From positions 1 to 37,800 of IMG/VR virus record IMGVR_UViG_3300047300_000247: a stretch of DNA of 37,800 nucleotides. One strand, written 5' to 3'. Below are positions 3,329 to 15,889 of this stretch, in pieces. Origin of the DNA: a virus. The translations under genes were made by a program, and so were the position numbers. The notes under the pieces were generated by a model, which saw only the letters and a list, made by a program, of their open reading frames with translations, made no database searches and had not been told where the DNA came from. How positions within the stretch are numbered: the first letter of the stretch is position 1; each line of letters opens with the position of its first letter.

Positions 3329-5296
3329 ATGGACGAAAGATACGAAGAAATTGAACCAGTAGCGGAAGCAGAACAAGAACTAGTTCAGTTTGTTGTTGAG
3401 AAGTGTACTGCATGGCGTGATCATCGTAATACAAACCATTTAGATAAGTGGGAACAGTATGAACGCTTATTCATGGGTCAGTGGTCTGCAGAAGATAAAG
3501 CTCGTGAATCAGAAAGATCACGTATTGTAACACCTGCTCTACAGCAAGCGATTGAAGGTAAGCAAGCAGAAATCTCTGAAGCTATCTTTGGACGTGGTGA
3601 ATGGTTTGATATTCAAGACGATCGTCAAGATCAAGATAGGACAGATGTAGAAGCTGTGCGTCTACAGATGCATGAGGACTTCAAGTTTAGTAAAGTTAAG
3701 AAGTCTATCGATAACATCATTCTATTGGCTGAGATCTATGGTACAGGTATCGGTGAAATCATTGTAGAAGAAAAGAATATCTACTCACCTGCTACACAAG
3801 CTATCCCAGGAAACACAAACGCTGCTGCTATCGGTGTGATCGAGAAGACACACTTCATGGTTGGTTTGAATCCAGTATTGCCGACTAACTTCTTAATTGA
3901 TCCTAATGCATTGTCTGTTGATACTGCTCTAGGTGTTGCGATTGAAGAACAAGTATCATTACACGTTATCATTGAAGGTATGATGAAAGGTTTGTACCGC
4001 AAGTGTGACGTAGGCACAAGCAATGCCAATGACGTATTAGATACGACAAGCGATGACGTTAAGTATCAAAAAGATAAAGTAGATGTGATTCGTTACTATG
4101 GTTTAGTTCCTCGTGAATACTTATCAGGTATTGAAGAAGAGGATGTAGTTGATTTATTCTCTGAAGAAGCTGAAGACTATCAAGACATGGTAGAAGCTAT
4201 TATCGTTATTGCTGACGGTAAACATCTTCTTAAAGCAGAAGAATCACCTTACATGATGAAGGATCGTCCTGTAATAGCATATCAAGCTGATTCACTTCCA
4301 GGAAGCTTCTGGGGTCGCGGTACAGCAGAAAAAGGTTACAATATGCAAAAGGCGATGGATGCACAAGTACGTGCCCATTTAGATTCTTTAGCATTGACTA
4401 CAGCACCTATGATGGCGATGGACGCTACTCGCTTACCTCGTGGTGCTAAATACGAAGTTAAAGCCGGTAAGAACTTATTGGTTAACGGTAATCCTAATGA
4501 GATCATGATGCCATTTAAGTTTGGTGTTACTGATCCGGGTAATCTACAGACTGCTTCTACATTCCAAGCCATGTTATTACAAGCAACAGGCACTATGGAC
4601 GCTACAGCAATGCCAGGACAGGTAGCTGCAGGTGAAGCATCAGGTGCAGGCTTATCAATGGCTCTATCAGGCTTGATGAAGAAGAATAAGCGTACCTTGA
4701 TTAACTTCCAAGAAGACTTCTTAGTACCGTTTATTCAGAAAGCTGCTTGGAGATTCATGCAGTTTGATCCTGAAAGATATCCAGTACAGGACTTTAAGTT
4801 CATTCCTTTGTCTACAATGGGTATGGTGGCTCGTGAATACGAACAACAACAGATGGTCGGCTTAATGCAGACTCTAGGAAACTCTCCTATTACTCCTGTA
4901 TTGCTTCAAGGCATCGTAAAATCCTCTAGTTTGTCTAATAGAGAAGAGATTATTGTTGCATTGCAGAAGATGGCTAGTCCTACTCCAGAAGAACAGGCTA
5001 AAAAACAGCTTGAATTAGCCCAAATGCAGGCTCTGGTTGAACGAACTCAAGCCGAGGCAGCCCGTGCTATGGCTGAAGCTCAAAAAGCTCAAGCAGACGC
5101 TGCTAAAGCGATTGAACAAGCTAAGGCTGTAGTGCCTGATTTGCAGATTAAGGCTATGGATGCTATGAAACCTAACGGTGATCTACCTTTAGACTTCAAA
5201 ATGAGGAAAGAAATCGGCAATTTGCTAGTAAAAGAGCAAGATATCGCCTCAAATGAACGCATTGCAGCTATGCAAATGACTAAAAAATTACAATAA
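3329..5296 (+). CDS. Portal (head-tail connector) protein
   Basis: A 655-residue protein placed directly between terminase and scaffold/capsid genes. It would form the dodecameric ring through which DNA enters and leaves the head. The N-terminal half is typical of large podovirus portals (WEQYERLFMGQW, RSRIVTPALQQAIEGKQAEI, ILLAEIYGTGIGEI), with a GSFWGRGTAEKG segment in the middle. The C-terminus has a long Ala/Gln-rich heptad-like helix (AEAARAMAEAQKAQADAAKA), fitting the barrel or crown helix. AAGGA lies 8 nt before the ATG. The call rests on position, size and these segments. Confidence 0.85.
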   Translation: MDERYEEIEPVAEAEQELVQFVVEKCTAWRDHRNTNHLDKWEQYERLFMGQWSAEDKARESERSRIVTPALQQAIEGKQAEISEAIFGRGEWFDIQDDRQDQDRTDVEAVRLQMHEDFKFSKVKKSIDNIILLAEIYGTGIGEIIVEEKNIYSPATQAIPGNTNAAAIGVIEKTHFMVGLNPVLPTNFLIDPNALSVDTALGVAIEEQVSLHVIIEGMMKGLYRKCDVGTSNANDVLDTTSDDVKYQKDKVDVIRYYGLVPREYLSGIEEEDVVDLFSEEAEDYQDMVEAIIVIADGKHLLKAEESPYMMKDRPVIAYQADSLPGSFWGRGTAEKGYNMQKAMDAQVRAHLDSLALTTAPMMAMDATRLPRGAKYEVKAGKNLLVNGNPNEIMMPFKFGVTDPGNLQTASTFQAMLLQATGTMDATAMPGQVAAGEASGAGLSMALSGLMKKNKRTLINFQEDFLVPFIQKAAWRFMQFDPERYPVQDFKFIPLSTMGMVAREYEQQQMVGLMQTLGNSPITPVLLQGIVKSSSLSNREEIIVALQKMASPTPEEQAKKQLELAQMQALVERTQAEAARAMAEAQKAQADAAKAIEQAKAVVPDLQIKAMDAMKPNGDLPLDFKMRKEIGNLLVKEQDIASNERIAAMQMTKKLQ

Positions 5297-5300
5297 AGGC

Positions 5301-5329
5301 TTGACAAAACTCTAATTTTATGCTATAAT
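5301..5329 (+). promoter_or_regulatory. Sigma70 extended -10 promoter, capsid operon
   Basis: TTGACA (5301-5306), a 17-bp spacer ending in TGC, and TATAAT (5324-5329) give a full-consensus extended -10 promoter in the only sizeable gap between portal and scaffold. Transcription should start near 5336 and drive the two small genes, scaffold and capsid up to the terminator at 7694. Confidence 0.9.
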
Positions 5330-5375
5330 ATATCTATTATAACACAGAAAGTAATCTCCGTCAAGGAAAAAGATT

Positions 5376-5621
5376 ATGGATAGAGAACTACAAGACTATT
5401 ACGAGAACAGATTCGGACTATTCGGCACTAAAGGATGGAAAGAACTGATTGAAGACGTAACAAAGATTAAAGAGAGTGTTGATTCCTTACGAGGTGCTGA
5501 CACTTTAGAACAATTGTATTTTAAGAAGGGTGAGTTATCAATCCTTAATTGGATTCTCAACCTAGAAGACTCAAGCAAAGAAGTCTACGATCAGCTTCAA
5601 GAGGAAGCCAAAGATGCCTAG
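5376..5621 (+). CDS. Small conserved-looking phage protein, unknown function
   Basis: An 81-residue acidic, largely helical protein between portal and scaffold. It begins MDRELQDYYENRFGLF, and its C-terminal half is an amphipathic helix. AAGGA precedes the ATG by about 9 nt. It is the first gene after the 5301 promoter and overlaps the next gene by 8 nt, so the two are likely translated together. I recognise no domain. Position suggests a role in head assembly or a companion of portal, but that is inference. Confidence 0.75.
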   Translation: MDRELQDYYENRFGLFGTKGWKELIEDVTKIKESVDSLRGADTLEQLYFKKGELSILNWILNLEDSSKEVYDQLQEEAKDA

Positions 5622-5856
5622 AAGATTGTTTGAGTTTAAATGCACCAGTTGTAATTCTGTCACAGAAAATTTCGTAGATGATACGGTAAAAAAGGTCTTC
5701 TGTGAGGAATGCAAAACGGATACGGCAGAGAGAATCATCTCTCCCTGTGGTATCTACCTTGAACCGTTTAGCGGTCTCCATCCATCGAGTTATGACCGGT
5801 GGAATAGAGTGAGAGCTGAGAAGTTGGCACTGGAGAAGAAGAGAAACGGTGAGTAG
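5614..5856 (+). CDS. Zinc-ribbon protein (FmdB-like)
   Basis: An 80-residue protein with CTSC near residues 10-13 and CEEC near 29-32, the two knuckles of an FmdB-type zinc ribbon, followed by a basic helical tail (WNRVRAEKLALEKKR). Small zinc ribbons of this kind are common next to phage structural genes; their molecular role is not established. It overlaps the previous gene by 8 nt and is followed by a probable terminator hairpin. Confidence 0.75.
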   Translation: MPRRLFEFKCTSCNSVTENFVDDTVKKVFCEECKTDTAERIISPCGIYLEPFSGLHPSSYDRWNRVRAEKLALEKKRNGE

Positions 5857-5858
5857 TG

Positions 5859-5899
5859 GCTCATAAGCAGACGCTCTCTTGACTGCCGAGCTATTTTTT
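5859..5899 (+). terminator. Possible intrinsic terminator/attenuator before scaffold
   Basis: Two stacked stems, GCTC/GAGC (5859-5862 with 5888-5891) and GCAG/CTGC (5867-5870 with 5883-5886), precede TATTTTTT ending at 5899. The loop is large and the outer stem only 4 bp, so this would be weak or partial. If active it would lower read-through from the two small genes into scaffold and capsid, which is counter-intuitive; it could instead act as a processing hairpin. Confidence 0.35.
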
Positions 5900-5935
5900 A
5901 ATTTCCTAGAATCGTAAATACGACAGGAGGACAGT

Positions 5936-6748
5936 ATGGCTGAACTATTTGATCTGGACGAACCAGAGAACAACGAGAACGACAACCAAAACGAAGAACT
6001 TGATAATCAAGAAAACCTTCTAGATGGTGAAGATGAGAATAATCAGGCTCAAACACCTGAGTTACCTGATAAGTATCGTGGTAAATCTCTTGATGAGATT
6101 ATCAGGATGCACCAAGAAGCTGAAAAGTTAATTGGTAGACAGGCACAAGAGGTAGGAGAGACACGTAAACTCGTTGATGATCTGATCAAACAGCAAATCA
6201 ATAAACCTAATGTTGAGCCAGAGGCTAAGCAAGAGATTGATTTTTTTGAAGATCCGAACAAGGCTATTAATCAGGCGATTGATAATCATCCGGCAGTGTT
6301 ATCTGCCAAGCAAGCTGCAGAGCAATCTCGTATTACATCCGCAGTAGCAACGATTGAGAAACAACATCCTGATTATATGGAGGTAGCAAACAGTGCTGAA
6401 TTTGCTGAGTGGGTTAAGGCATCTAAAGTACGTTTGAATTTGTATGCAAGTGCAGTTAACTATGATGTTGACTCCGCTCTAGAACTCTTATCAACTTACA
6501 AGGCGATTAGAGGAGTGTCTCAGGCAAAAGCTGACTCACAGGTGGACGCAACTATCGAAGCTGACAAAGCACAACGTAAACAAAACCTCAAAGCCGCTTC
6601 TGTGCAAACAGGAGGTTCTGGTGAAACGCCTCAGAAGTTTTTCCGTAGGCAAGATATTTTACGTTTAATGATGTATGACCGTGAACGATACCACGCATTA
6701 GAACCTGAGATTCGTCAGGCTTATGCAGAAGGTAGAGTTAAAGGTTAA
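5936..6748 (+). CDS. Capsid scaffolding protein
   Basis: A 270-residue, acidic, helix-rich protein immediately before the major capsid gene. The N-terminus is Asn/Glu/Asp-rich and disordered, followed by a recognisable scaffold-like segment (LPDKYRGKSLDEIIRMHQEA, then EKLIGRQAQEVGE) and a basic C-terminal part (KFFRRQD, RVKG) of the sort that contacts capsid subunits. Scaffolds guide prohead assembly and then leave. An AGGAGGACAG ribosome site lies 4-5 nt upstream of the ATG, strong for this genome. No protease motif is visible. Confidence 0.85.
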   Translation: MAELFDLDEPENNENDNQNEELDNQENLLDGEDENNQAQTPELPDKYRGKSLDEIIRMHQEAEKLIGRQAQEVGETRKLVDDLIKQQINKPNVEPEAKQEIDFFEDPNKAINQAIDNHPAVLSAKQAAEQSRITSAVATIEKQHPDYMEVANSAEFAEWVKASKVRLNLYASAVNYDVDSALELLSTYKAIRGVSQAKADSQVDATIEADKAQRKQNLKAASVQTGGSGETPQKFFRRQDILRLMMYDRERYHALEPEIRQAYAEGRVKG

Positions 6749-6776
6749 TACTCTAACTTTATAAGGAAATTTAAAA

Positions 6777-7682
6777 ATGGCTTTAGGTACTAATCATCAA
6801 ACAATCACTACAGCAGCTAAGTTTATCCCTGAGTTGTGGAGTGACGAGGTCGTAGCAACTTACAAGAAGAATTTGGTTGCTGCTAATTTAATCAAGAAGA
6901 TGAACTTCAAAGGTAAGAAAGGTGATTCAATTCACATTCCTAAACCTGGTCGTGGTTCTGCAAACGCAAAAGCTGCTTCTACTCAAGTTACATTGAATAC
7001 AGATACAGCTACTGAAGTTATCGTTAACATTGATCAACACTGGGAATACTCAATCTTGATCGAAGACATCACTGAAGCACAAGCTTTGGCTTCTATGCGT
7101 CAATTCTACACAGACGATGCAGGCTATGCATTGGCTCGTAAAGTTGATAGCTCTTTGCTAGAGTTAGGTCGTGGTGTTAACGGTGGTGACGGTACAAACG
7201 CTTACACTGGTGCTTATAGTGGTGCTGACGGTACTACTGCTTACACTGGTACAGCAGGTGCGTTGACTGACGCAGCTATCCGCCGTTCTATCCAACGTTT
7301 GGATGACAGCGATACACCTATGGATGGTCGTTTCTTGATCGTTCCTCCATCAACACGTAACACATTGATGGGTATCGCACGTTTCACTGAGCAAGCTTTC
7401 GTTGGTGAGACTGGCGCAGGCAACACAATCCGCAATGGCGAAATCGGTAACGTATACGGTGTACCTGTATTCGTAACTTCTAACGCTGACGCGGCTGCTG
7501 ACGGCGATCGTATCTGCTTGTTAGGTCACCGTGACTTCGCGGTATTGGCTGAACAAATGGCTATCCGTACACAAACTCAGTACAAGCAAGAGTGGCTTGG
7601 TACATTGTTCACTGCTGACACATTGTTCGGCGTGAAAGAGTTGCGTGACGGTGCTGCTGTTGCGTTGGCTGTACCACAGTAA
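6777..7682 (+). CDS. Major capsid protein
   Basis: A 301-residue protein in the canonical place after scaffold and before a strong terminator. The N-terminus (TTAAKFIPELWSDEV, then KNLVAANLIKKMNF) and middle (TEVIVNIDQHWEYSILIEDI) resemble P22/HK97-fold coat proteins of podoviruses. It contains repeated GxDGT loops (NGGDGTNAYTG, GADGTTAYTG). Codon choice differs visibly from its neighbours: TTG for Leu, and GGT, CGT and AAC are favoured, as expected for the most highly expressed gene. An AAGGAAA ribosome site precedes the ATG. Confidence 0.92.
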   Translation: MALGTNHQTITTAAKFIPELWSDEVVATYKKNLVAANLIKKMNFKGKKGDSIHIPKPGRGSANAKAASTQVTLNTDTATEVIVNIDQHWEYSILIEDITEAQALASMRQFYTDDAGYALARKVDSSLLELGRGVNGGDGTNAYTGAYSGADGTTAYTGTAGALTDAAIRRSIQRLDDSDTPMDGRFLIVPPSTRNTLMGIARFTEQAFVGETGAGNTIRNGEIGNVYGVPVFVTSNADAAADGDRICLLGHRDFAVLAEQMAIRTQTQYKQEWLGTLFTADTLFGVKELRDGAAVALAVPQ

Positions 7683-7693
7683 TAGCTAGACTG

Positions 7694-7719
7694 ATCCCTC
7701 TTCGGAGGGGTCTTTCTTA
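7694..7719 (+). terminator. Intrinsic terminator with UUCG loop after capsid gene
   Basis: GATCCCTC (7694-7701) pairs with GAGGGGTC (7706-7713; one T-G pair) around a TTCG tetraloop, followed by TTTCTT (7714-7719). This is a compact, very stable hairpin just after the capsid stop codon. The broken U-tract suggests partial termination, allowing some read-through to the fibre genes. Confidence 0.8.
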
Positions 7720-7759
7720 AGGGCTCTACGGAGTCTTTAATAAAGACAAGGAGTTTCAA

Positions 7760-7924
7760 ATGGCAAGGTTTAAAGATATAGCTACTGGGAATGTGTTTGA
7801 GTTCACTAATGAACACGACATACAAACAATGCGTAAACACACAGAGTATGTAGAAGTTGTAGAAGAGAATCAAGAAGTAGTTATTAAACCTTCAGTAAAA
7901 CAAAAGAAATCAAAGGAAGTTTAA
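7760..7924 (+). CDS. Small basic protein after capsid gene
   Basis: A 54-residue protein (begins MARFKDIATGNVFEF, ends KKSKEV) in the gap between capsid terminator and fibre. AAGGAG precedes the ATG by about 6 nt, and the stop immediately abuts the fibre ATG at 7925. The N-terminal half looks like a small beta structure and the C-terminus is lysine-rich. Short genes of this type often follow the phage capsid gene, but I know no assigned function. Strong ribosome site and tight packing support it as real. Confidence 0.7.
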   Translation: MARFKDIATGNVFEFTNEHDIQTMRKHTEYVEVVEENQEVVIKPSVKQKKSKEV

Positions 7925-9325
7925 ATGACATTATATCGTGGAGCAGGTGGAGGCGGTAACTCTACAGACGATGCGTTAGTCACACAAGTACAAACATACG
8001 CTACGCAGGCTCAAACATCAGCAACTAATGCATCTACTTCTGCATCTAATGCAAGCACATCCGCAAGTGCTGCTGCTACGTCAGCTTCTAATGCTGCTGC
8101 TTCTGCTTCTACTGCAGCAAGTGCAATTAGTTCTGCACAATCTGCTGCTGCTCTAGCACAATCTCATGCGAATGCTGCAGATAACTCTGCTGATGATGCT
8201 GCTGAGGAAGCAATCTTAGCATCTTCATACCGACTACAAGCACAAAACTCTGCTGTAGCTGCTGCTGCGAGTGCTACTGAGGCTTCTCAACTAACTGCTG
8301 ACTTAGCTGCTGACTTAGCGGCTGTTGAATCTAATAAGAATGCTGCTCAGGCTGCTGAAACACAAGCAGGTATTTACGCAACTAACTCAGCTAACTCATC
8401 AACTTCTGCTGCAACTTCTGCAGCGAATGCAGCAACAAGTGCCTCTACAGCAACTACTCAAGCAAGTGCTGCTTCTACTTCAGCAACGAACGCGGCTGCT
8501 TCTGCATCTACTGCAGTATCTGCTTCTAATACAGCAACAACAAAAGCTAGTGAAGCTTTAGCAAGTGCTAATGCGGCTGCTGCTAGTGAATCTGCTGCTG
8601 CAACATCAGCATCTAACGCATCTACTTCAGCATCTTCTGCTTCTACTTCAGCAACTAATGCTGCCTCCAGTGCATCTAGTGCGTCTACTTCTGCATCTAG
8701 TGCAAGTACATCAGCAACTGCTGCTGCGGCTTCTGCTACATCAGCAAGTGGATCAGCTTCTACAGCAACTACTCAAGCAAGTAATGCATCTGCTTCTGCG
8801 ACATCAGCAGCTTCTAGTGCATCTGCTGCTTCAACAAGTGCAAATAATGCAGCAACATCAGCAACTAATGCGGCTGCTTCTGCAACTGCGGCTGCTAATA
8901 GTGCTTCTCAGTTTACTGATGCATATGTAAGAGGTTTAATCTCAGCAACAGGTAACTTGTCTTATAACGCTTCTACAGGTGTTATGAGTTATACTCAACC
9001 TAGTTATGCTGCTGTAGCTACAACAGGTGCTTATTCTGATCTAACAGGTAAGCCTTCTTTAGCGGCAGTTGCAACATCAGGCTCATACACAGATTTAATT
9101 AATAAGCCAACTATTCCTACTGCTGTAAGTCAGCTAACTAACGACAGTGCTTATATTACTCAAGCAGGTGCTCGTACAGCTATCAGTGCTAATAGTGGTT
9201 TAACATATAATAGCTCTACTGGTGTTATGGGCGCAGCTTCAGGCTATAACGGTTACGGTGTAAGAACGGTTTCTACTGCTGCTCCATCAGGCGGTTCTGA
9301 TGGTGACGTTTGGTATAAGGTGTAA
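7925..9325 (+). CDS. Ala/Ser/Thr-rich repetitive tail fibre
   Basis: A 466-residue fibre-like protein. Residues about 15-335 are an extreme low-complexity run of Ala, Ser, Thr and Asn in irregular SATSAS/NAAASAS units, like the long shaft of lambda side-tail fibres. Residues 335-466 change to phage fibre modules, with two related repeats of the type YAAVATTGAYSDLTGKPS. The protein ends in YGVRTVS...GGSDGDVWYKV, a C-terminal peptide shared with the short fibre at 15437-15889. The following Gly-rich gene is in the same reading frame, separated by one TAA and one codon. Likely a receptor-contacting fibre. Confidence 0.85.
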   Translation: MTLYRGAGGGGNSTDDALVTQVQTYATQAQTSATNASTSASNASTSASAAATSASNAAASASTAASAISSAQSAAALAQSHANAADNSADDAAEEAILASSYRLQAQNSAVAAAASATEASQLTADLAADLAAVESNKNAAQAAETQAGIYATNSANSSTSAATSAANAATSASTATTQASAASTSATNAAASASTAVSASNTATTKASEALASANAAAASESAAATSASNASTSASSASTSATNAASSASSASTSASSASTSATAAAASATSASGSASTATTQASNASASATSAASSASAASTSANNAATSATNAAASATAAANSASQFTDAYVRGLISATGNLSYNASTGVMSYTQPSYAAVATTGAYSDLTGKPSLAAVATSGSYTDLINKPTIPTAVSQLTNDSAYITQAGARTAISANSGLTYNSSTGVMGAASGYNGYGVRTVSTAAPSGGSDGDVWYKV

Positions 9326-9328
9326 TCA

Positions 9329-10318
9329 ATGACTATTAATATTAAAGACGGTGGTGTTTGGAAAGAAGCTACTATGTACGTCAAAGATGGCGGTACATGG
9401 AAAGCAGTTCAAGAAGGCTATATTAAAGACGCAGGAACTTGGAAACAATTCTTAATGAGTCGTGTATCTTCTTCATATACTTTTGCTGCAAATACTGCTA
9501 ATGCTTCTTTAAACTTATCTACAGTTGCAGGGTATGTTTCAGGTAAAACAGATATTACTGTTACAGTTAACTCAGGTGTTTACTTGTATGCTACTTCTAC
9601 AGGTGGTTATGCTTTAAATCTAACAGGCGGTGCTGTTGGTGATACCTTAACTATTGTAAATAATGGTTTTATTATGGGGCAAGGCGGTAAAGGCGGTGAC
9701 TACGGCGGAGGCGCTCTTAGGCAAGGCGGTACTGGTGGTCCTGCTATTAATTTTGGTTTTGGTATGTCTGGTGCAACTGTAACTAACACATCAGGATATA
9801 TCGGAGGCGGTGGTGGTGGTGGCTCGGGAGGTTCTGGTGAATATAGTGGCGGTGGTGGCGGTGCAGGCGGCGGTGCCGGTGGAAGTTCTATAGGGGCAGG
9901 TGGTGGTGCAGGTGGTGGAGTTGGTTCAACAGGTTCAAATGGAGCAGGCGGTTCTTATATGCCGTCTGAATCTGTAGTATATTCACAAGGCGGCGGAGGA
10001 GGCGGAAGAATAATGCCAGGAACAGGCGGTTCTGGTGCGCGAGCTGGCTATACTAGTGACCCTAATGGTGGCGGAGCAGGTGGCGGTGGTGGCTCAACCG
10101 GACAGACAGGTAGTGGTGCGGCAGGTGGTAGCGCAGGTAATGCAGGGTCAAGTGCCGGTTCGGCAGGGGGACCGAGCGGTGGCGGTTATGGAGCATCAGG
10201 TGGTTCAGGTTCTTATGGAAGCGCATCAGGTGGTAAAGCCATTAACTTAAATGCCAAGTCAATTACATGGACAGGTGGAGCATCTAGTTCTAGTAGGGCT
10301 TATGGGGCAGTTTCTTAA
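9329..10318 (+). CDS. Glycine-rich fibre tip / adhesin
   Basis: A 329-residue protein. The N-terminus has three tandem KDGGxWK-type motifs (about residues 6-11, 20-25 and 35-40; the third is KDAGTWK). Residues about 60-110 form a beta-rich module, and residues about 115-300 are dominated by Gly with poly-Gly runs (GGGGGGGSGGSG). Long Gly-rich stretches of this type form packed polyglycine II helices in the T-even/S16 gp38 adhesins that bind outer-membrane receptors, so receptor binding is the best guess. AAGG precedes the ATG by 8 nt. It lies in the same frame as the preceding fibre, raising the possibility of stop-codon read-through. Confidence 0.75.
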   Translation: MTINIKDGGVWKEATMYVKDGGTWKAVQEGYIKDAGTWKQFLMSRVSSSYTFAANTANASLNLSTVAGYVSGKTDITVTVNSGVYLYATSTGGYALNLTGGAVGDTLTIVNNGFIMGQGGKGGDYGGGALRQGGTGGPAINFGFGMSGATVTNTSGYIGGGGGGGSGGSGEYSGGGGGAGGGAGGSSIGAGGGAGGGVGSTGSNGAGGSYMPSESVVYSQGGGGGGRIMPGTGGSGARAGYTSDPNGGGAGGGGGSTGQTGSGAAGGSAGNAGSSAGSAGGPSGGGYGASGGSGSYGSASGGKAINLNAKSITWTGGASSSSRAYGAVS

Positions 10319-10330
10319 TAAGGTGTGACT

Positions 10331-10711
10331 ATGAAATATATTGTTAATGATTTAATAAACGGAAAAACTAAAGTATTTGATACTAATGAAGAAGCTATCG
10401 CCGCTTTACAACAAATTAAAGCAGATTATCTTGAACAAGAATCTTATAGGTTTACAGTTGCGCGTGAAATAGTAGACGGCAATAATACTACTTGGACTGC
10501 TGTTGATTTAGATACGGCAACAGAAGATGCGACGTATCATGTATTTAATACATTGACAGGACAACATGAATTAGTTGTTGGTGTTGAACCGGCAAAATTA
10601 AGACATTCTCAAATTAAAGAAGAGTTTTTAACGTCCAATGGTTTAGATGCACCAACTGAAGTAACAGACGAAGAAGCAATTAAATACACGCCGGTATTAA
10701 CTATAGCCTAA
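10331..10711 (+). CDS. Hypothetical protein next to adhesin, possible fibre chaperone
   Basis: A 126-residue acidic protein (MKYIVNDLINGKTKVFDTNE...). ATG 10331 is preferred over an in-frame GTG at 10325 because AAGG lies 8 nt before it. Composition is mixed alpha/beta with no Cys, no membrane segment and no motif I recognise. Small genes directly downstream of adhesins often encode assembly chaperones; this is inferred from position only. Its stop overlaps the start of the PP-loop enzyme (TAATG), so the two are probably co-translated. Confidence 0.65.
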   Translation: MKYIVNDLINGKTKVFDTNEEAIAALQQIKADYLEQESYRFTVAREIVDGNNTTWTAVDLDTATEDATYHVFNTLTGQHELVVGVEPAKLRHSQIKEEFLTSNGLDAPTEVTDEEAIKYTPVLTIA

Positions 10712-11625
10712 TGAAATATTACTTCCGCAAAAAATCTACGTTAAATTTAGGTACATTAGCGGAGTGTATGTGGGACCGTAACGAGATAGTTACACCAAAC
10801 TCAGACATTCTTTTGCTAACACCTATAGGCAAACTAAGTAGTATAAGTTTTTTAACTGCCTGTGAAAATAGAGGCAAAGAACTAGCTAACTTAGACAGCA
10901 AAATATATGTACTGTGGTCTGGCGGGTTAGATAGTACAACAGCATTTTTGGTACTAAGAGAAGTAGTGCCAGCAGAACAATTGGCTGTTTTGTACACGGC
11001 TGATAGCCTTACGGAATACCCCGGATTTTTTGATGCGCATATAAAAGGCATACACGAAAACCATAAGTTTAGTATGGCAACAATGGCGCAAACTATGGAA
11101 AAGTTTTGCAAGCTAGGGGTTATAGTTACAGGTGAAATTGGTGACCAACTATTTGGGAGCGCATGGAGCACCACTGGTACATCCCAAGAACTTAAAGATA
11201 ATTGGAAAAATTTTAAATATGGGGCTTTATTGAAAATACCAAGAGTTGAGCAATTTGTAGAAGCCTGTCCCAAAAAAATTGAAAATGCTTTAGATGTATT
11301 GTGGTGGTTTAACTACGCCATGAAATACCAGTACGTACAAATGCGTATGCTCCGTGATAACACTTCAACACAACTAAATAGTAATATCTACCATTTTTTT
11401 GATACACCAGACTTTAACGATTATGCGGTGTCTATAGACTCTGAAACTAGAATGCCTGAGTTTGATATGAAAAACTATAAATACCCAATGCGTGAAGTAA
11501 TATATAAGTTATCTGGTGATAAAGAGTACGCATTTAATAAGCCAAAAGTTAGGTCTTGGAACGCCCATGGGAATCCACTTGCTGAGGCTATTGACACTAA
11601 TTGGGTTAGATATGCAGATAATTAA
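10711..11625 (+). CDS. Asparagine-synthase-like PP-loop ATPase lacking glutaminase domain
   Basis: A 304-residue protein. Residues 70-76 are SGGLDST, the ATP-pyrophosphatase P-loop that adenylates a carboxylate. Residues 141-150 are GEIGDQLFGS, matching the G-x-G-D-E/Q-L-F-G motif of the asparagine synthase family rather than QueC or GuaA. The C-terminal part (YKLSGDKEYAFNKPK) has the basic residues found late in that fold. There is no N-terminal Cys-type glutamine amidotransferase domain, so ammonia or another amine would be the nucleophile, as in AsnB-like cyclases and ligases. Codon use (many ATA, TTT and TAT codons) differs from structural neighbours, suggesting recent acquisition. It overlaps the cupin gene by 14 nt. 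The substrate is unknown. Confidence 0.8.
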   Translation: MKYYFRKKSTLNLGTLAECMWDRNEIVTPNSDILLLTPIGKLSSISFLTACENRGKELANLDSKIYVLWSGGLDSTTAFLVLREVVPAEQLAVLYTADSLTEYPGFFDAHIKGIHENHKFSMATMAQTMEKFCKLGVIVTGEIGDQLFGSAWSTTGTSQELKDNWKNFKYGALLKIPRVEQFVEACPKKIENALDVLWWFNYAMKYQYVQMRMLRDNTSTQLNSNIYHFFDTPDFNDYAVSIDSETRMPEFDMKNYKYPMREVIYKLSGDKEYAFNKPKVRSWNAHGNPLAEAIDTNWVRYADN

Positions 11626-12208
11626 CGGTCTTTCTATAGTTAATTCAACTTCACAAGACCTGTACCAATACCGGTGCTATGTAAAAACACAGCCAATAAT
11701 TACTGATCAAAGATGCAGCTATTGGTATCTAAATGGTAGCGAAGTCGGGTGTTTTACCGGTAACGGCGAAGTATTTAATAGGTTTGACGTTTGCGTTGAG
11801 ATATTTGGCTATACCCCAGAAACACGTACTTCTACATATAGTCGGGGTACTGATTTACCTTATTTAAATGGGTGCAGTACTAAACAGTTAATACCGCCAA
11901 CACGCGTTGGTGACCCAACTTGGCAGTTATTGCAAATGCAGCCTAATACAACTGAACAAAACCACCATGTTCATTCAACAGCAAGAATTGTTTATGTTAT
12001 TTCAGGCAGTGGTGAATCAGTTGTTGGGATGCCTACTAACAAAAAAACACACAAATTAGAACAGGGAATGGTTTTAATTTTAGACAAACTTGAACCACAT
12101 CATTTTGTTTCTTATGATGACGGTTTAATTGTTGCACCGTTGCATATATTTAGTTCATCACAAAATGAATTTAATCATCCTATGTTTAATGGTACTCATA
12201 TTATTTAA
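11612..12208 (+). CDS. Cupin-fold protein paired with PP-loop enzyme
   Basis: A 198-residue protein starting at ATG 11612, inside the end of the PP-loop gene; longer in-frame starts would overlap that gene deeply. The C-terminal half is a cupin barrel: motif 1 HHVHS (His 118, 119, 121) followed by YVISGSGE, and motif 2 LEQGMVLILDKLEPHHF (His 163, 164). The His residues could hold a metal, though the usual motif 1 Glu is not obvious. The first about 100 residues contain three Cys, several aromatic residues and no domain I recognise. Overlap with the PP-loop gene suggests one pathway, perhaps making or modifying a small molecule, sugar or peptide. Confidence 0.75.
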   Translation: MQIINGLSIVNSTSQDLYQYRCYVKTQPIITDQRCSYWYLNGSEVGCFTGNGEVFNRFDVCVEIFGYTPETRTSTYSRGTDLPYLNGCSTKQLIPPTRVGDPTWQLLQMQPNTTEQNHHVHSTARIVYVISGSGESVVGMPTNKKTHKLEQGMVLILDKLEPHHFVSYDDGLIVAPLHIFSSSQNEFNHPMFNGTHII

Positions 12209-12223
12209 AAATAAAGGTAAGCA

Positions 12224-12433
12224 ATGAGCGATAACGTGACAGATAAAGACTTCGGAGCACTCGAAGCAGAAGTCAAAATATTAATTAATGAAGTACACTT
12301 GCTTCGTAAAGAGATGGCTCAGGTTAATGCTGTCATCAACCAAGGCAAAGGTGGATTATACGTGTTATTATTCTCTGCCGGTGCTATTGGATCAGCAGTG
12401 ACATTACTATTTAAGAAAATCTTTGGTGCTTAA
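12224..12433 (+). CDS. Small coiled-coil/one-TM membrane protein (holin- or XhlA-like)
   Basis: A 69-residue protein. Residues about 8-43 form an amphipathic helix with heptad-like spacing (LEAEVKILINEVHLLRKEM), followed by one membrane segment (GGLYVLLFSAGAIGSAVTLLF) and a short basic tail (KKIFGA). This topology is like XhlA-type lysis accessory proteins or virion membrane anchors. AAAGG precedes the ATG. It is far from the lysis pair at 22.3-23.1 kb, so it may be an accessory holin or a structural protein. Confidence 0.7.
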   Translation: MSDNVTDKDFGALEAEVKILINEVHLLRKEMAQVNAVINQGKGGLYVLLFSAGAIGSAVTLLFKKIFGA

Positions 12434-12768
12434 TGGAATACTCATCAGTATCTGTAGGACATAATCTAACAGCAGGGGCTACTACTTGTGTGTACAAAGT
12501 ACCTACAGGGTATGCTGCTAAGTGGAACTTAATGTATTTACACAATGCATCAGGTAACACTAAGACAATCACTGCTAAATGGTATGATTTAACAGCTAAT
12601 GCTGAGTATAACGTTTTAAACGGCTATAGCATGGCATCTAAAGACTATTTAAAGTTTGATGGCGGTGCTTATGTTGTATTAGATGAAGGAGATGAGGTTC
12701 GTCTTACTCCTGAAGCAGCTTCTGATTTCTCATCAATCAATACGTTTGAACTAATAAGGAAGAAATAA
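12433..12768 (+). CDS. Beta-rich structural-type protein, unknown
   Basis: A 111-residue protein with alternating short beta strands (KWNLMYLHNASGNTKTITAKW, then EVRLTPEAASDF), no Cys and no membrane segment. The pattern suits a small virion decoration or fibre-associated beta sandwich. Start overlaps the previous stop (TAATG) and its own stop overlaps the next start in the same manner. I cannot name the family. Confidence 0.7.
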   Translation: MEYSSVSVGHNLTAGATTCVYKVPTGYAAKWNLMYLHNASGNTKTITAKWYDLTANAEYNVLNGYSMASKDYLKFDGGAYVVLDEGDEVRLTPEAASDFSSINTFELIRKK

Positions 12769-12929
12769 TGGCTACTAAAAAACAACAAGCAAAAGTAGGT
12801 AAAGTAATGCATGAGTTTAAGACAGGTACTTTACATTCTGGTAAGGGCGGTAAAGTAGTTAAGAACCCTAAACAAGCAGTAGCTATTGCGATGTCCGAAG
12901 CAGGTATTAAACAAAAGAAGAAGAAATGA
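12768..12929 (+). CDS. DUF6496-like small basic protein
   Basis: A 53-residue Lys-rich protein. The core VGKVMHEFKTGTLHSG then NPKQAVAIAMSEAG matches my memory of DUF6496, a short basic family in phages and bacteria with no known role. The tail is KQKKKK. It overlaps both neighbours (TAATG at the front, ATGA at the back). High charge suggests nucleic acid binding, perhaps packaged with DNA; that is inference. Confidence 0.7.
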   Translation: MATKKQQAKVGKVMHEFKTGTLHSGKGGKVVKNPKQAVAIAMSEAGIKQKKKK

Positions 12930-13204
12930 AAAAAGACTCTAGATTAGAACGTGCCGGTGTATCGGGATATAATAAACCCAAGGCTACCCCAAGTCACCCT
13001 ACTAAGTCTCACGTAGTAGTGGCTAAAGAAGGCGATCAAGTTAAGACTATTCGCTTTGGTCAGCAAGGTGTTAAAGGTGCAGGAGCTAATCCTAAGACTG
13101 AGGCAGAGAAAGCACGTAAAAAGAGCTTTGAAGCACGCCATGCCAAGAATATCGCTAAAGGTAAAATGAGTGCGGCTTACTGGGCAGATAAGGTAAAGTG
13201 GTAA
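12926..13204 (+). CDS. Conserved small basic phage protein
   Basis: A 92-residue very basic protein with KSHVVVAKEGDQVKTIRFGQ and a C-terminal RKKSFEARHAKNIAKGKMSA...WADKVKW. I recall this signature as widespread in marine and environmental phages without an assigned function. The pair with the DUF6496-like gene, overlapping by ATGA, suggests joint expression. It ends just before the promoter at 13212. Nucleic-acid binding is plausible from charge only. Confidence 0.7.
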   Translation: MKKDSRLERAGVSGYNKPKATPSHPTKSHVVVAKEGDQVKTIRFGQQGVKGAGANPKTEAEKARKKSFEARHAKNIAKGKMSAAYWADKVKW

Positions 13205-13211
13205 ATAAAGC

Positions 13212-13240
13212 TTGACTTTTTAATAATTGTATGGTATAAT
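13212..13240 (+). promoter_or_regulatory. Sigma70 extended -10 promoter abutting connector gene
   Basis: TTGACT (13212-13217), a 17-bp spacer ending in TGG, and TATAAT (13235-13240). The connector ATG is at 13246, only 5 nt after the -10 box, so transcription should start at or within a nucleotide or so of the start codon. It is the same promoter class as 247 and 5301. Confidence 0.85.
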
Positions 13241-13245
13241 ATATT

Positions 13246-13899
13246 ATGACTTATTTAGAACTAGTAAATGAAGTACTTAAGAGACTCCGAGAAGACGAAG
13301 TTACGTCTGTCGGGGATACTAACTATTCTAAATTAATAGGTGCTTACGTCAATGATGCTAAGATGGACGTAGAAAACGCTTATTCTTGGAATGCTTTATC
13401 AGATACTTTAACGGTCAATACTGTTACAGGTATCTTTAACTATGCTTTAGTTGGCTCAGGTCAACGATTTGAAGTCATCGATGTATGGAATAACAACTCA
13501 GGAAAGAAATATTTCCTTAAGAAGTCTCCAGTAAGTCGTATGACATATCTTTTATTAGGTCAGAATCCTGATAGAAATTCTCCTACAGAGTTTTGCTTTA
13601 ACGGTGAAGACACTAACGGAGATACGCAAGTAGATTTATATCCTATTCCGGATGGTGCTTATCAGTTATTCTTTAATATCTGTAAGCCACAGACTGAGTT
13701 AACTGCAGATAATACACGTATTCTAGTCCCTTCTTTACCTGTTATTATGGGTGCTTATGCAAGAGCATTGGCAGAACGTGGTGAAGATGCAGGCATTGGA
13801 TCTGCAGATGCTATGGCAATGTATAATAAAACATTAGGTGATGCTATCGCTATTGAATCTAATCGTTATGTAGAAGAATCTAACTGGAGTGCCTGCTAA
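13246..13899 (+). CDS. Tail tubular A / head-tail adaptor-like protein
   Basis: A 217-residue protein opening with MTYLELVNEVLKRLRE, typical of the T7 gp11-like adaptor that joins portal to nozzle. The helical N-terminus, central beta region and a C-terminal helix (VIMGAYARALAERGEDAG) fit that family. There is no ribosome binding site upstream; the -10 box of its promoter ends 5 nt before ATG, so the primary transcript would be leaderless. Its stop overlaps the nozzle start (TAATG). Confidence 0.8.
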   Translation: MTYLELVNEVLKRLREDEVTSVGDTNYSKLIGAYVNDAKMDVENAYSWNALSDTLTVNTVTGIFNYALVGSGQRFEVIDVWNNNSGKKYFLKKSPVSRMTYLLLGQNPDRNSPTEFCFNGEDTNGDTQVDLYPIPDGAYQLFFNICKPQTELTADNTRILVPSLPVIMGAYARALAERGEDAGIGSADAMAMYNKTLGDAIAIESNRYVEESNWSAC

Positions 13900-15440
13900 T
13901 GGCAGAGCAGTTAATATCACAATCAGTAGCAGCACCGGGATTCTATGGCTTAAATACACAAGACGCAAGTGTACAGCTAGAAAGTGGTTTTGCTTTACAA
14001 GCCTTTAACGCTGTTATCGATAAGTTTGGTCGTATTGGTTCTAGGAAGGGTTGGGTTAAAGCTAATACAACTTCTCCTACAGCTTTAAACAATCAAGAGA
14101 TTCAACAGATTTACGAATTAGTAGGTACTGATGGAACTAAATATGTACTCGCCACAGGAAACAACAAACTATTTAAACTTGTGGGTACTACACTATCAGA
14201 GATTACTTATGGCGGTGGAGGAGCTGCACCTACGATCACTGCAAACAATTGGTCTATTGCTTCTCTTAACAACAAAGCATACTTCTTCCAATCAGGACAT
14301 GATCCATTAGTATTTGATCCTGCTTTAAGCACATCACAGTATCGTAGAATTTCAGAGCATTCTACTTATGCAGGAACTGTACAGCAAAACGATATCGTAT
14401 TATCTGCTTATGGTCGATTATGGGCAGCTAGTACAGCAACAGATAAACAGATTGTACGCTTCTCAGATGTAGCAGCAGGTACTGTTTGGTTTGGTGGTAC
14501 ATCAGGCTATATTGATGTATCTCAAGTATGGACTAATGGTACTGATGAGATTACTGCACTAGGTGCTCATGGTGGTTTCTTAGTTATCTACGGTAAGAGA
14601 CAAACTCTTATCTATCAAGGTGCTCAAGATCCTAATACAATGACACTATTAGAAGGTATCAATGGTGTGGGTTGTGTTGCTAGAGATACTGTAAAGAGTA
14701 TTAGTAACGATTTATTATGGCTATCTGACTCAGGCATCAGATCTTTTGCACGTCTAGTAACTGAAAAGTCTATGCCAATGCGTGACGTAAGTAAGAACGT
14801 ACGTGATGATTTATTAGCAGTATTAGCAGGTGAAGACTTAAGTAAAGCAAGAGCAACATACAATGAGAAGGATGCTTTCTATATCGTATCTTTCCCACAA
14901 TCAGATATCAGCTACTGCTTTGACGTTAGAGCACCTTTACCTGATGGAGCAGCGAGACCTACAGCATGGACTTTAGCACCTTCTGCTTTGTATTATGATA
15001 CATCACGTAGAATGTTGATGGGCTTCCCAGGATACATTGGCGTTTATTCAGGAAATGATGATAACGGTTCATCATATCCTTTTATTTATTTTACTAACTA
15101 CTTTGATTTTCAATCACCAACAACTGAAAAGATTCTTAAGAAGATTGGCTATACAGTAGTAGGCGGTGTTAATCAAGAAGTAACAGTTAAATGGGGTTTT
15201 GATTATCAGAACAACTATAGATCTGAGACTTCAGTAGTAGGTGATCAAGTAGTTTATGAGTATGGTGTAGCCGAATACGGTATCGCTGAATACTCAGGTG
15301 GTGTCGAGATTGACCAAAAGAAAGTCAATGCACATGGAAGAGGTAAGGTCTTGCAGATTGGTTTTGAAACTAATATTTCAGGGCAACCTATATCTATCCA
15401 GAAGATTGATGTCTATGTGAAACAAGGACGAGTATTATGA
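13899..15440 (+). CDS. Tail nozzle / tail tubular B-like protein
   Basis: A 513-residue beta-rich protein following the adaptor gene, the usual order for gp11-gp12-type podovirus tails. It begins with a segment common in phage nozzle or stabilisation proteins (APGFYGLNTQDASVQLESGF) and contains multiple propeller-like strand repeats (YVLATGNNKLFKL, GRLWAAST, GFLVIYGKRQTLIYQG). It would form the hexameric tail tube tip that anchors fibres. No enzymatic motif is visible. The stop overlaps the short fibre start (ATGA). Confidence 0.75.
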   Translation: MAEQLISQSVAAPGFYGLNTQDASVQLESGFALQAFNAVIDKFGRIGSRKGWVKANTTSPTALNNQEIQQIYELVGTDGTKYVLATGNNKLFKLVGTTLSEITYGGGGAAPTITANNWSIASLNNKAYFFQSGHDPLVFDPALSTSQYRRISEHSTYAGTVQQNDIVLSAYGRLWAASTATDKQIVRFSDVAAGTVWFGGTSGYIDVSQVWTNGTDEITALGAHGGFLVIYGKRQTLIYQGAQDPNTMTLLEGINGVGCVARDTVKSISNDLLWLSDSGIRSFARLVTEKSMPMRDVSKNVRDDLLAVLAGEDLSKARATYNEKDAFYIVSFPQSDISYCFDVRAPLPDGAARPTAWTLAPSALYYDTSRRMLMGFPGYIGVYSGNDDNGSSYPFIYFTNYFDFQSPTTEKILKKIGYTVVGGVNQEVTVKWGFDYQNNYRSETSVVGDQVVYEYGVAEYGIAEYSGGVEIDQKKVNAHGRGKVLQIGFETNISGQPISIQKIDVYVKQGRVL

Positions 15441-15889
15441 GCGATTACATTAAAACAACAAATTTTTCAATTAAAGATACGTTACCTTCTGGTAATGCAA
15501 ATAAAGTTGTTAGAGGTACAGAGTTAAACGATGAGTTTACTGCTATTCAGTCAGCAGTACAGTCTAAGGCGGATAAGGATTCTCCTGCTTTAACAGGAAC
15601 TCCTACTGCACCTACTGCTGCTTCAGGCACTAACACAACACAACTAGCAACTACTGCTTTTGTTAAGACTGCTGTAGATACTTCTGCAGCTACTCTTACA
15701 ACAAGCATTGGAACTAAAGCAGATAAGACTACTACTATTACTGCAGGAGCAGGTTTAACAGGTGGTGGTGATTTATCTTCTAATAGAACTTTATCTATTG
15801 CTTCTACTTCTATGGGATATGGTACACGTACAGTGTCTACTTCAGATCCTACAGGAGGTACTGATGGCGATATTTGGTTAAAGGTTTAA
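15437..15889 (+). CDS. Short tail fibre / fibre-anchor protein
   Basis: A 150-residue protein with fibre-type low complexity. It has an N-terminal attachment-like segment (YIKTTNFSIKDTLPSGNANK), a KADKDSPALTGTPTAPTAAS repeat of the kind found in phage collar and fibre shafts, and an end YGTRTVS...GGTDGDIWLKV that mirrors the C-terminus of the long fibre at 7925-9325. Position after the nozzle suggests the part that joins fibres to the tail. The shared terminal peptide suggests interaction with or duplication from the long fibre. Confidence 0.8.
   Translation: MSDYIKTTNFSIKDTLPSGNANKVVRGTELNDEFTAIQSAVQSKADKDSPALTGTPTAPTAASGTNTTQLATTAFVKTAVDTSAATLTTSIGTKADKTTTITAGAGLTGGGDLSSNRTLSIASTSMGYGTRTVSTSDPTGGTDGDIWLKV

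Follow-up and report, generated by a model that had tools for sequence, protein, structure and literature searches.

Organization of the locus

The window, by which we mean the whole stretch of DNA analyzed here, is an IMG/VR virus record of 37.8 kb whose gene set is that of a tailed phage of the podovirus type, an uncultured virus of bacteria. Structural genes for a terminase, portal, major capsid protein, fibre, adhesin, SU10-type adaptor, and internal virion protein are present, and the opposite strand carries genes for ribonucleotide reductase, DNA polymerase, and primase/helicase. A gene for a PP-loop ligase and a gene for a cupin lie between adhesin and adaptor, within the following set of features:

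7925..9325, plus strand, tail fibre, Ser/Ala/Thr-rich (PHROG tail fibre, 3e-12)
9329..10318, plus strand, Gly-rich receptor-binding adhesin (PHROG 2056, "tail fiber protein; host specificity," 7.5e-6; PHROG 10745, 2.4e-20)
10331..10711, plus strand, adhesin companion, 126 aa (hidden Markov model [HMM] of proteins downstream of adhesins, 89 bits)
10711..11625, plus strand, AsnB-type PP-loop synthetase without a glutaminase domain, 304 aa (motifs, predicted fold, and conservation)
11612..12208, plus strand, cupin, bicupin-like, 198 aa (Cupin_2, model, and conserved His residues)
8896..12216, plus strand, exchangeable receptor-binding segment (no collinear DNA match in the closest relative, L216)
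12224..12433, plus strand, small holin-like gene (83% identical in L216)

The initial annotation had placed the ligase and cupin genes between adhesin and connector genes, and this position was borne out, with the fibre and the Gly-rich adhesin upstream and the SU10-type adaptor at 13246 (Pfam match, 7e-14) downstream. It had also reported a 14-nt overlap between the two genes, which is exact, and a codon use unlike that of the structural genes, which was recovered for both (z = -6.5 for the PP-loop gene and -3.5 for the cupin gene); the 126-aa gene was ordinary in this respect (z = -0.9). The TAATG that ends the 126-aa open reading frame (10331-10711) is at the same time the start of the PP-loop gene. 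The fibre is the last conserved structural gene ahead of the exchangeable segment, which takes in its C-terminal part, and the holin-like gene is the first conserved gene past it.

The PP-loop protein resembles the synthetase domain of AsnB

The PP-loop protein carries SGGLDST at residues 70 to 76 and GEIGDQLFGS at residues 141 to 150, as first read, and, with an N-terminus of MKYYF and a length of 304 aa, it has no class II glutaminase domain with Cys1. Used as a single query, it matched nothing in Pfam at an E value of 0.1, nor any PDB sequence or viral contig; the family was reached through an alignment of three relatives, which recovered 44 viral loci with TGEIGDQ-type proteins. The strongly conserved positions of the family are DR(T/N), SGG(I/L)DST, E102, GEIGDQ, KYQ, YK, D..Y, and K.K..S, most of them retained at 86 to 98% among 74 sequences. 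Across these sequences, R23, SGGxDST, E102, GE..DQ, K257, K277, and K279 were conserved, with S70, G71, G72, D74, and S75 of the SGGxDS motif at 95 to 98%. A loss of P-loop residues in relatives, considered at the outset, was thus not seen, the P-loop, GE..D, and Lys residues being kept at 87 to 98%.

An AlphaFold2 model of the protein (pLDDT 80) was compared with known structures by Foldseek, and every top PDB match was an asparagine, beta-lactam, or carbapenam synthetase (probability 1.0, E of ~2e-4), in line with the asparagine-synthase-like fold raised by the initial annotation. As modeled, the protein has the synthetase fold of asparagine synthetase B; its PP-loop is intact, and a glutaminase domain is lacking. 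The GE..D.(L/V)FGG motif aligns with that of Escherichia coli AsnB (VTGEIGDQLFGS versus VLSGEGSDEVFGGY). At the C-terminus, FFDT..F, YK.P.R, and K.K..S are conserved in the order of PFLD, K..LR, and R.K..F in AsnB; over the C-terminal third, automatic methods gave no usable alignment with E. coli AsnB, and the motifs that include the equivalent of the catalytic Lys449 were not placed there. Against the cut-off of the Asn_synthase family (PF00733), the window protein gave no match, and 4 of 17 relatives matched weakly (best E value, 5.8e-4).

The protein therefore shares with the AsnB, beta-lactam, and carbapenam synthetases of PF00733 the synthetase-domain fold, SGGxDS, GE..D.(L/V)FGG, and probably the conserved C-terminal lysines, but differs from them in its size of about 304 aa without an N-terminal glutaminase or glutaminase-like domain, in lying below Pfam detection, in the family's own DR(T/N) and TGEIGDQ motifs, and in its cupin partner. 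The model also matched six phage proteins of BFVD (TM of 0.66 to 0.73, ~20% identity). Phage proteins in BFVD that are automatically annotated "Asparagine synthase" (e.g., A0A6J5LYZ2 and A0A8S5PBV1) have the same fold, but this is an annotation only, and neither a function nor a cupin partner is described there. The lasso peptide cyclase LasC is likewise derived from AsnB and forms amides. The window protein differs from it in having no glutaminase-like domain and in its cupin partner. Lasso-cyclase-like chemistry, suggested earlier, found no backing in the neighborhood, since no precursor or leader peptidase (B protein) gene was seen among the adhesin, companion, cupin, holin-like, and adaptor genes.

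The cupin has a conserved histidine pattern

The cupin gene runs from an ATG at 11612 to 12208 and encodes 198 aa, with HHVH at residues 118 to 121 and EPHH at residues 161 to 164, as noted before. Cupin_2 (PF07883) matched the window protein at 1.1e-8 (35.1 bits versus a cut-off of 27.2) and matched 13 of 13 aligned members. The model (pLDDT 82) was most similar in Foldseek to bicupins, namely, (S)-ureidoglycine aminohydrolase, BacB, and DR1152/DUF861, with which it shares the barrel and the His metal-ligand pattern. The identity to these proteins is 9 to 15%, and the window family is set apart by invariant NGC, GDPT, and HPM..GT motifs and by R125, an invariant Arg at the position where many cupins carry a Glu ligand. 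The cut-offs for ectoine synthase (22 bits versus 128) and ureidoglycine aminohydrolase (13 versus 200) were missed. In the conservation count, H119, H121, and H163 were kept at 98 to 100% and the C-terminal tail H-P-M..T at 93 to 98%. The three histidines probably bind a metal.

Ligase and cupin are partners in phages and bacteria

The association between PP-loop homologues and the cupin, checked here by HMM, was found in 56 of 67 cupin-seeded viral loci, a count that includes L084, whose PP-loop hit is weak and of the PAPS-reductase type. The 11 loci counted as lacking a PP-loop gene include L073 and L092, short contigs in which the stretch adjoining the cupin is cut off, and four (L105, L109, L110, and L111) in which the cupin lies beside a PAPS-reductase-type PP-loop gene. 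In the latter, the cupin belongs to a cassette of ParB, PAPS-reductase-type PP-loop, and ParB (L084:3645-6573, L105:3647-6579, L109:5183-9016, L110:1369-4805, and L111:3614-6465). In several loci, this cassette adjoins the terminase. The cupin family thus also has a second, different PP-loop enzyme as a partner. No PP-loop match was found in the cupin-seeded loci L053 to L056 and L063.

Seeded with the PP-loop protein, 20 of 44 viral loci had a cupin, and some of the others had tandem PP-loop genes or a sodium:solute symporter. Altogether, 86 loci, dereplicated to 37 distinct pairs, held a PP-loop gene and a cupin gene no more than 3 kb apart in several gene orders. Since these pairs come from both phages and bacteria and most cupin loci carry the ligase, the pair is not a chance neighborhood but a genetic partnership that spans both groups. 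The mirror-distance correlation of the two proteins was modest (r = 0.27; the maximum of 2,000 permutations was 0.279).

Bacterial carriers include Bacteroidota, Planctomycetota, and Bdellovibrionales. The order is cupin, 127-aa gene, and PP-loop gene in Tenacibaculum, Aquimarina, Fulvivirga, and Roseivirga and PP-loop gene then cupin in Lewinella, Planctomycetota, and Sulfidibacter; in a Bdellovibrionales genome, the pair is accompanied by a symporter gene, a carbamoyltransferase gene, and others. Within the family of the Tenacibaculum genome, each gene was present in a single genome out of 199, and this was the same genome for both, which indicates that the bacterial copies are rare accessories there. 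No adhesin accompanies the bacterial copies, and the pairs of large phages are located outside fibre regions.

Some PP-loop relatives adjoin a sodium:solute symporter, whose nearest solved relative is the urea symporter DUR3, both in CPR and other bacteria (L125, L129, L131, and L132) and in phages (L012, L017, and L046). The bacterial symporter-linked loci also hold a gene of about 220 aa. Tandem divergent PP-loop paralogues without a cupin were observed on phage contigs (L024, L027 to L030, L033 to L035, L011, and L017). Among the phage isolates searched, only Pseudomonas phage Cygsa01 has PP-loop relatives, two of them (L004:3691-5840) with a 90-aa gene between, after a Gly-rich adhesin. 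They are annotated as mnmA, which is probably a misannotation; the phage is described in PMC11256456, and its main text does not mention mnmA. No cupin was found in the GenBank phage isolates searched, and a defense-system search with the window finding gave no match. Full-text literature searches brought up no relevant publication on an AsnB-like enzyme paired with a cupin in phages. The partnership, common to phages and bacteria, is uncharacterized and amenable to biochemistry.

The pair lies in an exchangeable receptor-binding cassette

Phages with the backbone of the window were gathered with two anchor proteins, giving 160 loci, many of them short contigs. None of the 160 had a PP-loop or cupin match, nor did the 26 listed relatives with at least about 3 kb upstream of the anchor. 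The closest relative, L216, has a capsid protein that is 90% identical; its DNA is collinear with positions 4843-8895 and 12217-15544 of the window but differs in the stretch between them. This segment (8896..12216) holds the end of the fibre gene, the adhesin, the companion, the PP-loop gene, and the cupin, and its right edge falls 8 bases past the cupin stop.

A second exchange was seen between L002 and L003, two otherwise unrelated phages whose sole common DNA is a 2.64-kb block of 70% nucleotide identity (L002:153-2793 and L003:3955-6597). In both phages, the left edge of the block lies inside the adhesin gene, past the N-terminal anchor, and the right edge is exactly the cupin stop. In this lineage, the pair moves as one DNA block with the receptor domain of the adhesin. 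Together with the segment replaced in L216, the shared block defines an exchangeable receptor-binding cassette. With the adhesin-domain HMM, the adhesin was located upstream of the pair in the window, in L002 and L003, in L076, and, within a separate lineage, in 17 of 18 loci; in L115, it precedes the PP-loop gene alone, and one of the 160 backbone relatives has the adhesin without the pair. A link of the pair to receptor-binding genes, as the initial annotation proposed, is thus supported by adhesin adjacency in several lineages and by the L002/L003 block.

The pair is one filling of a slot behind the adhesin

With the adhesin domain as the seed, 73 viral loci were recovered, 53 of which have at least 1.5 kb downstream. 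The pair was absent from 51 of the 53, L002 and L003 being the only carriers, which rules out a model in which the adhesin requires the pair. In 39 of the 53 loci, the gene directly after the adhesin encodes a small protein belonging to a single cluster, and an HMM of such proteins scored 89 bits on the 126-aa protein of the window in a ten-sequence test set. The 126-aa gene is therefore a companion of the adhesin, for which we infer an assembly or chaperone-like role, contrary to the earlier suggestion that it could be a partner or substrate of the enzymes. Small open reading frames ahead of other PP-loop genes were, for most of those tested, not detectably homologous to it.

Other enzymes sometimes take the place of the pair after the adhesin and companion (L298, L306, L321, L353, L356, and L366), including a 2OG-Fe(II) oxygenase (PF13759, 4.6e-11), a methyltransferase (1.5e-14), and a weak ATP-grasp match; cupin-like proteins after the adhesin in other phages were recognized by eye. 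These observations indicate an enzyme slot behind adhesins, of which the ligase-cupin pair is one filling. As most of these adhesins lack the pair and many pairs lie away from adhesins, a functional connection with receptor binding does not apply throughout. That phages carry enzymes as cargo is already known, since 2OG-Fe oxygenases are a frequent class among marine phage auxiliary genes (PMC10436341). No description of slot-like enzyme placement behind adhesins was found in the literature searched.

Possible functions of the ligase-cupin pair

Taken together, the pair probably tailors something in or around the virus-host contact. AsnB-class enzymes adenylate a carboxylate and then hand it over to ammonia or another amine. 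By analogy, the synthetase would spend ATP on converting a carboxylate into its adenylate, attack by free ammonia or an amine substrate would then give an amide, and the cupin would isomerize, cyclize, or oxidize the product. More tentatively, the substrate may be a small acid or sugar acid instead of the adhesin itself, and the product might alter a cell-surface receptor or an infection-relevant metabolite of importance to the neighboring adhesin, for example, by masking the receptor on the infected cell. A small-molecule or surface-precursor target is favored because bacterial copies occur without any adhesin, an absence that also speaks against a fibre-only role, because some of these copies lie beside solute symporters or a carbamoyltransferase, and because adhesins often lack the pair. 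We lean toward a two-enzyme tailoring module in the slot behind the adhesin that forms an amide on a small acid or sugar acid, an explanation that we place just short of an even chance. Points against it are the position in the late operon, which fits modification of the virion at least as well, the many adhesins without the pair and pairs away from adhesins, the missing Asn_synthase match of the window protein, and the modest mirror-distance correlation.

Indeed, the pair may act on a virion protein, converting a side-chain or terminal carboxylate of the adhesin, fibre, or companion into an amide or crosslink that the cupin finishes, with a change in receptor binding or stability. Such a role would suit a pair lying within a late structural operon, co-transferred with the adhesin receptor domain and preceded directly by the adhesin in another lineage (17 of 18 loci), L076, and L115, and the oxygenase, methyltransferase, and ATP-grasp-like enzymes of the slot resemble peptide-tailoring sets. 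However, 51 of 53 loci of the same adhesin family do without the pair, bacterial copies have no adhesin beside them, and the pairs of large phages lie outside fibre regions, and we regard this role as unlikely.

Rather less probable is that the pair is auxiliary-metabolism cargo for amides or nitrogen, lodged in a recombination hotspot by the host-range genes and functionally unconnected with the adhesin. The variety of enzymes in the slot, the symporter association in bacteria, and the dispensability of the pair among the 160 backbone relatives, many of them short contigs, would agree with cargo, but the precise boundaries of the L002/L003 block, one within the adhesin gene and the other at the stop codon of the cupin, and the recurrence of adhesin adjacency in separate lineages argue against it. 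A tRNA or nucleic-acid modification enzyme, for which the PP-loop and the mnmA annotation in GenBank of the Cygsa01 relatives might speak, is very improbable, as the best fold matches are of the AsnB class and not MnmA or TilS, tRNA_Me_trans (the MnmA-type Pfam family) did not match the window protein and matched 1 of 17 relatives at 0.029, and a cupin partner has no known role there. The location among virion genes could also suit a degenerate or structural, inactive protein, but the intact frames and the retained P-loop, GE..D, and Lys residues make this the least credible reading.

The usual account of phage host range rests on the fibre sequence alone. Returning to the tailoring module, the movement of an enzyme pair with an adhesin receptor domain suggests that chemical tailoring belongs to phage-host recognition; alternatively, it may mean that receptor-masking chemistry travels along with the matching adhesin. 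We raise, tentatively and with more doubt than for the module itself, the broader idea that receptor-binding cassettes carry swappable tailoring enzymes that chemically adjust the adhesin or the receptor it reads. If so, host range would be set jointly by protein sequence and phage-encoded chemical modification.

Downstream of the exchangeable segment, a 92-aa protein encoded at 12926-13204 of the window (AGVSGYNKPK..KSHVVVAKEGD) has at least 596 viral matches, at several genomic positions.
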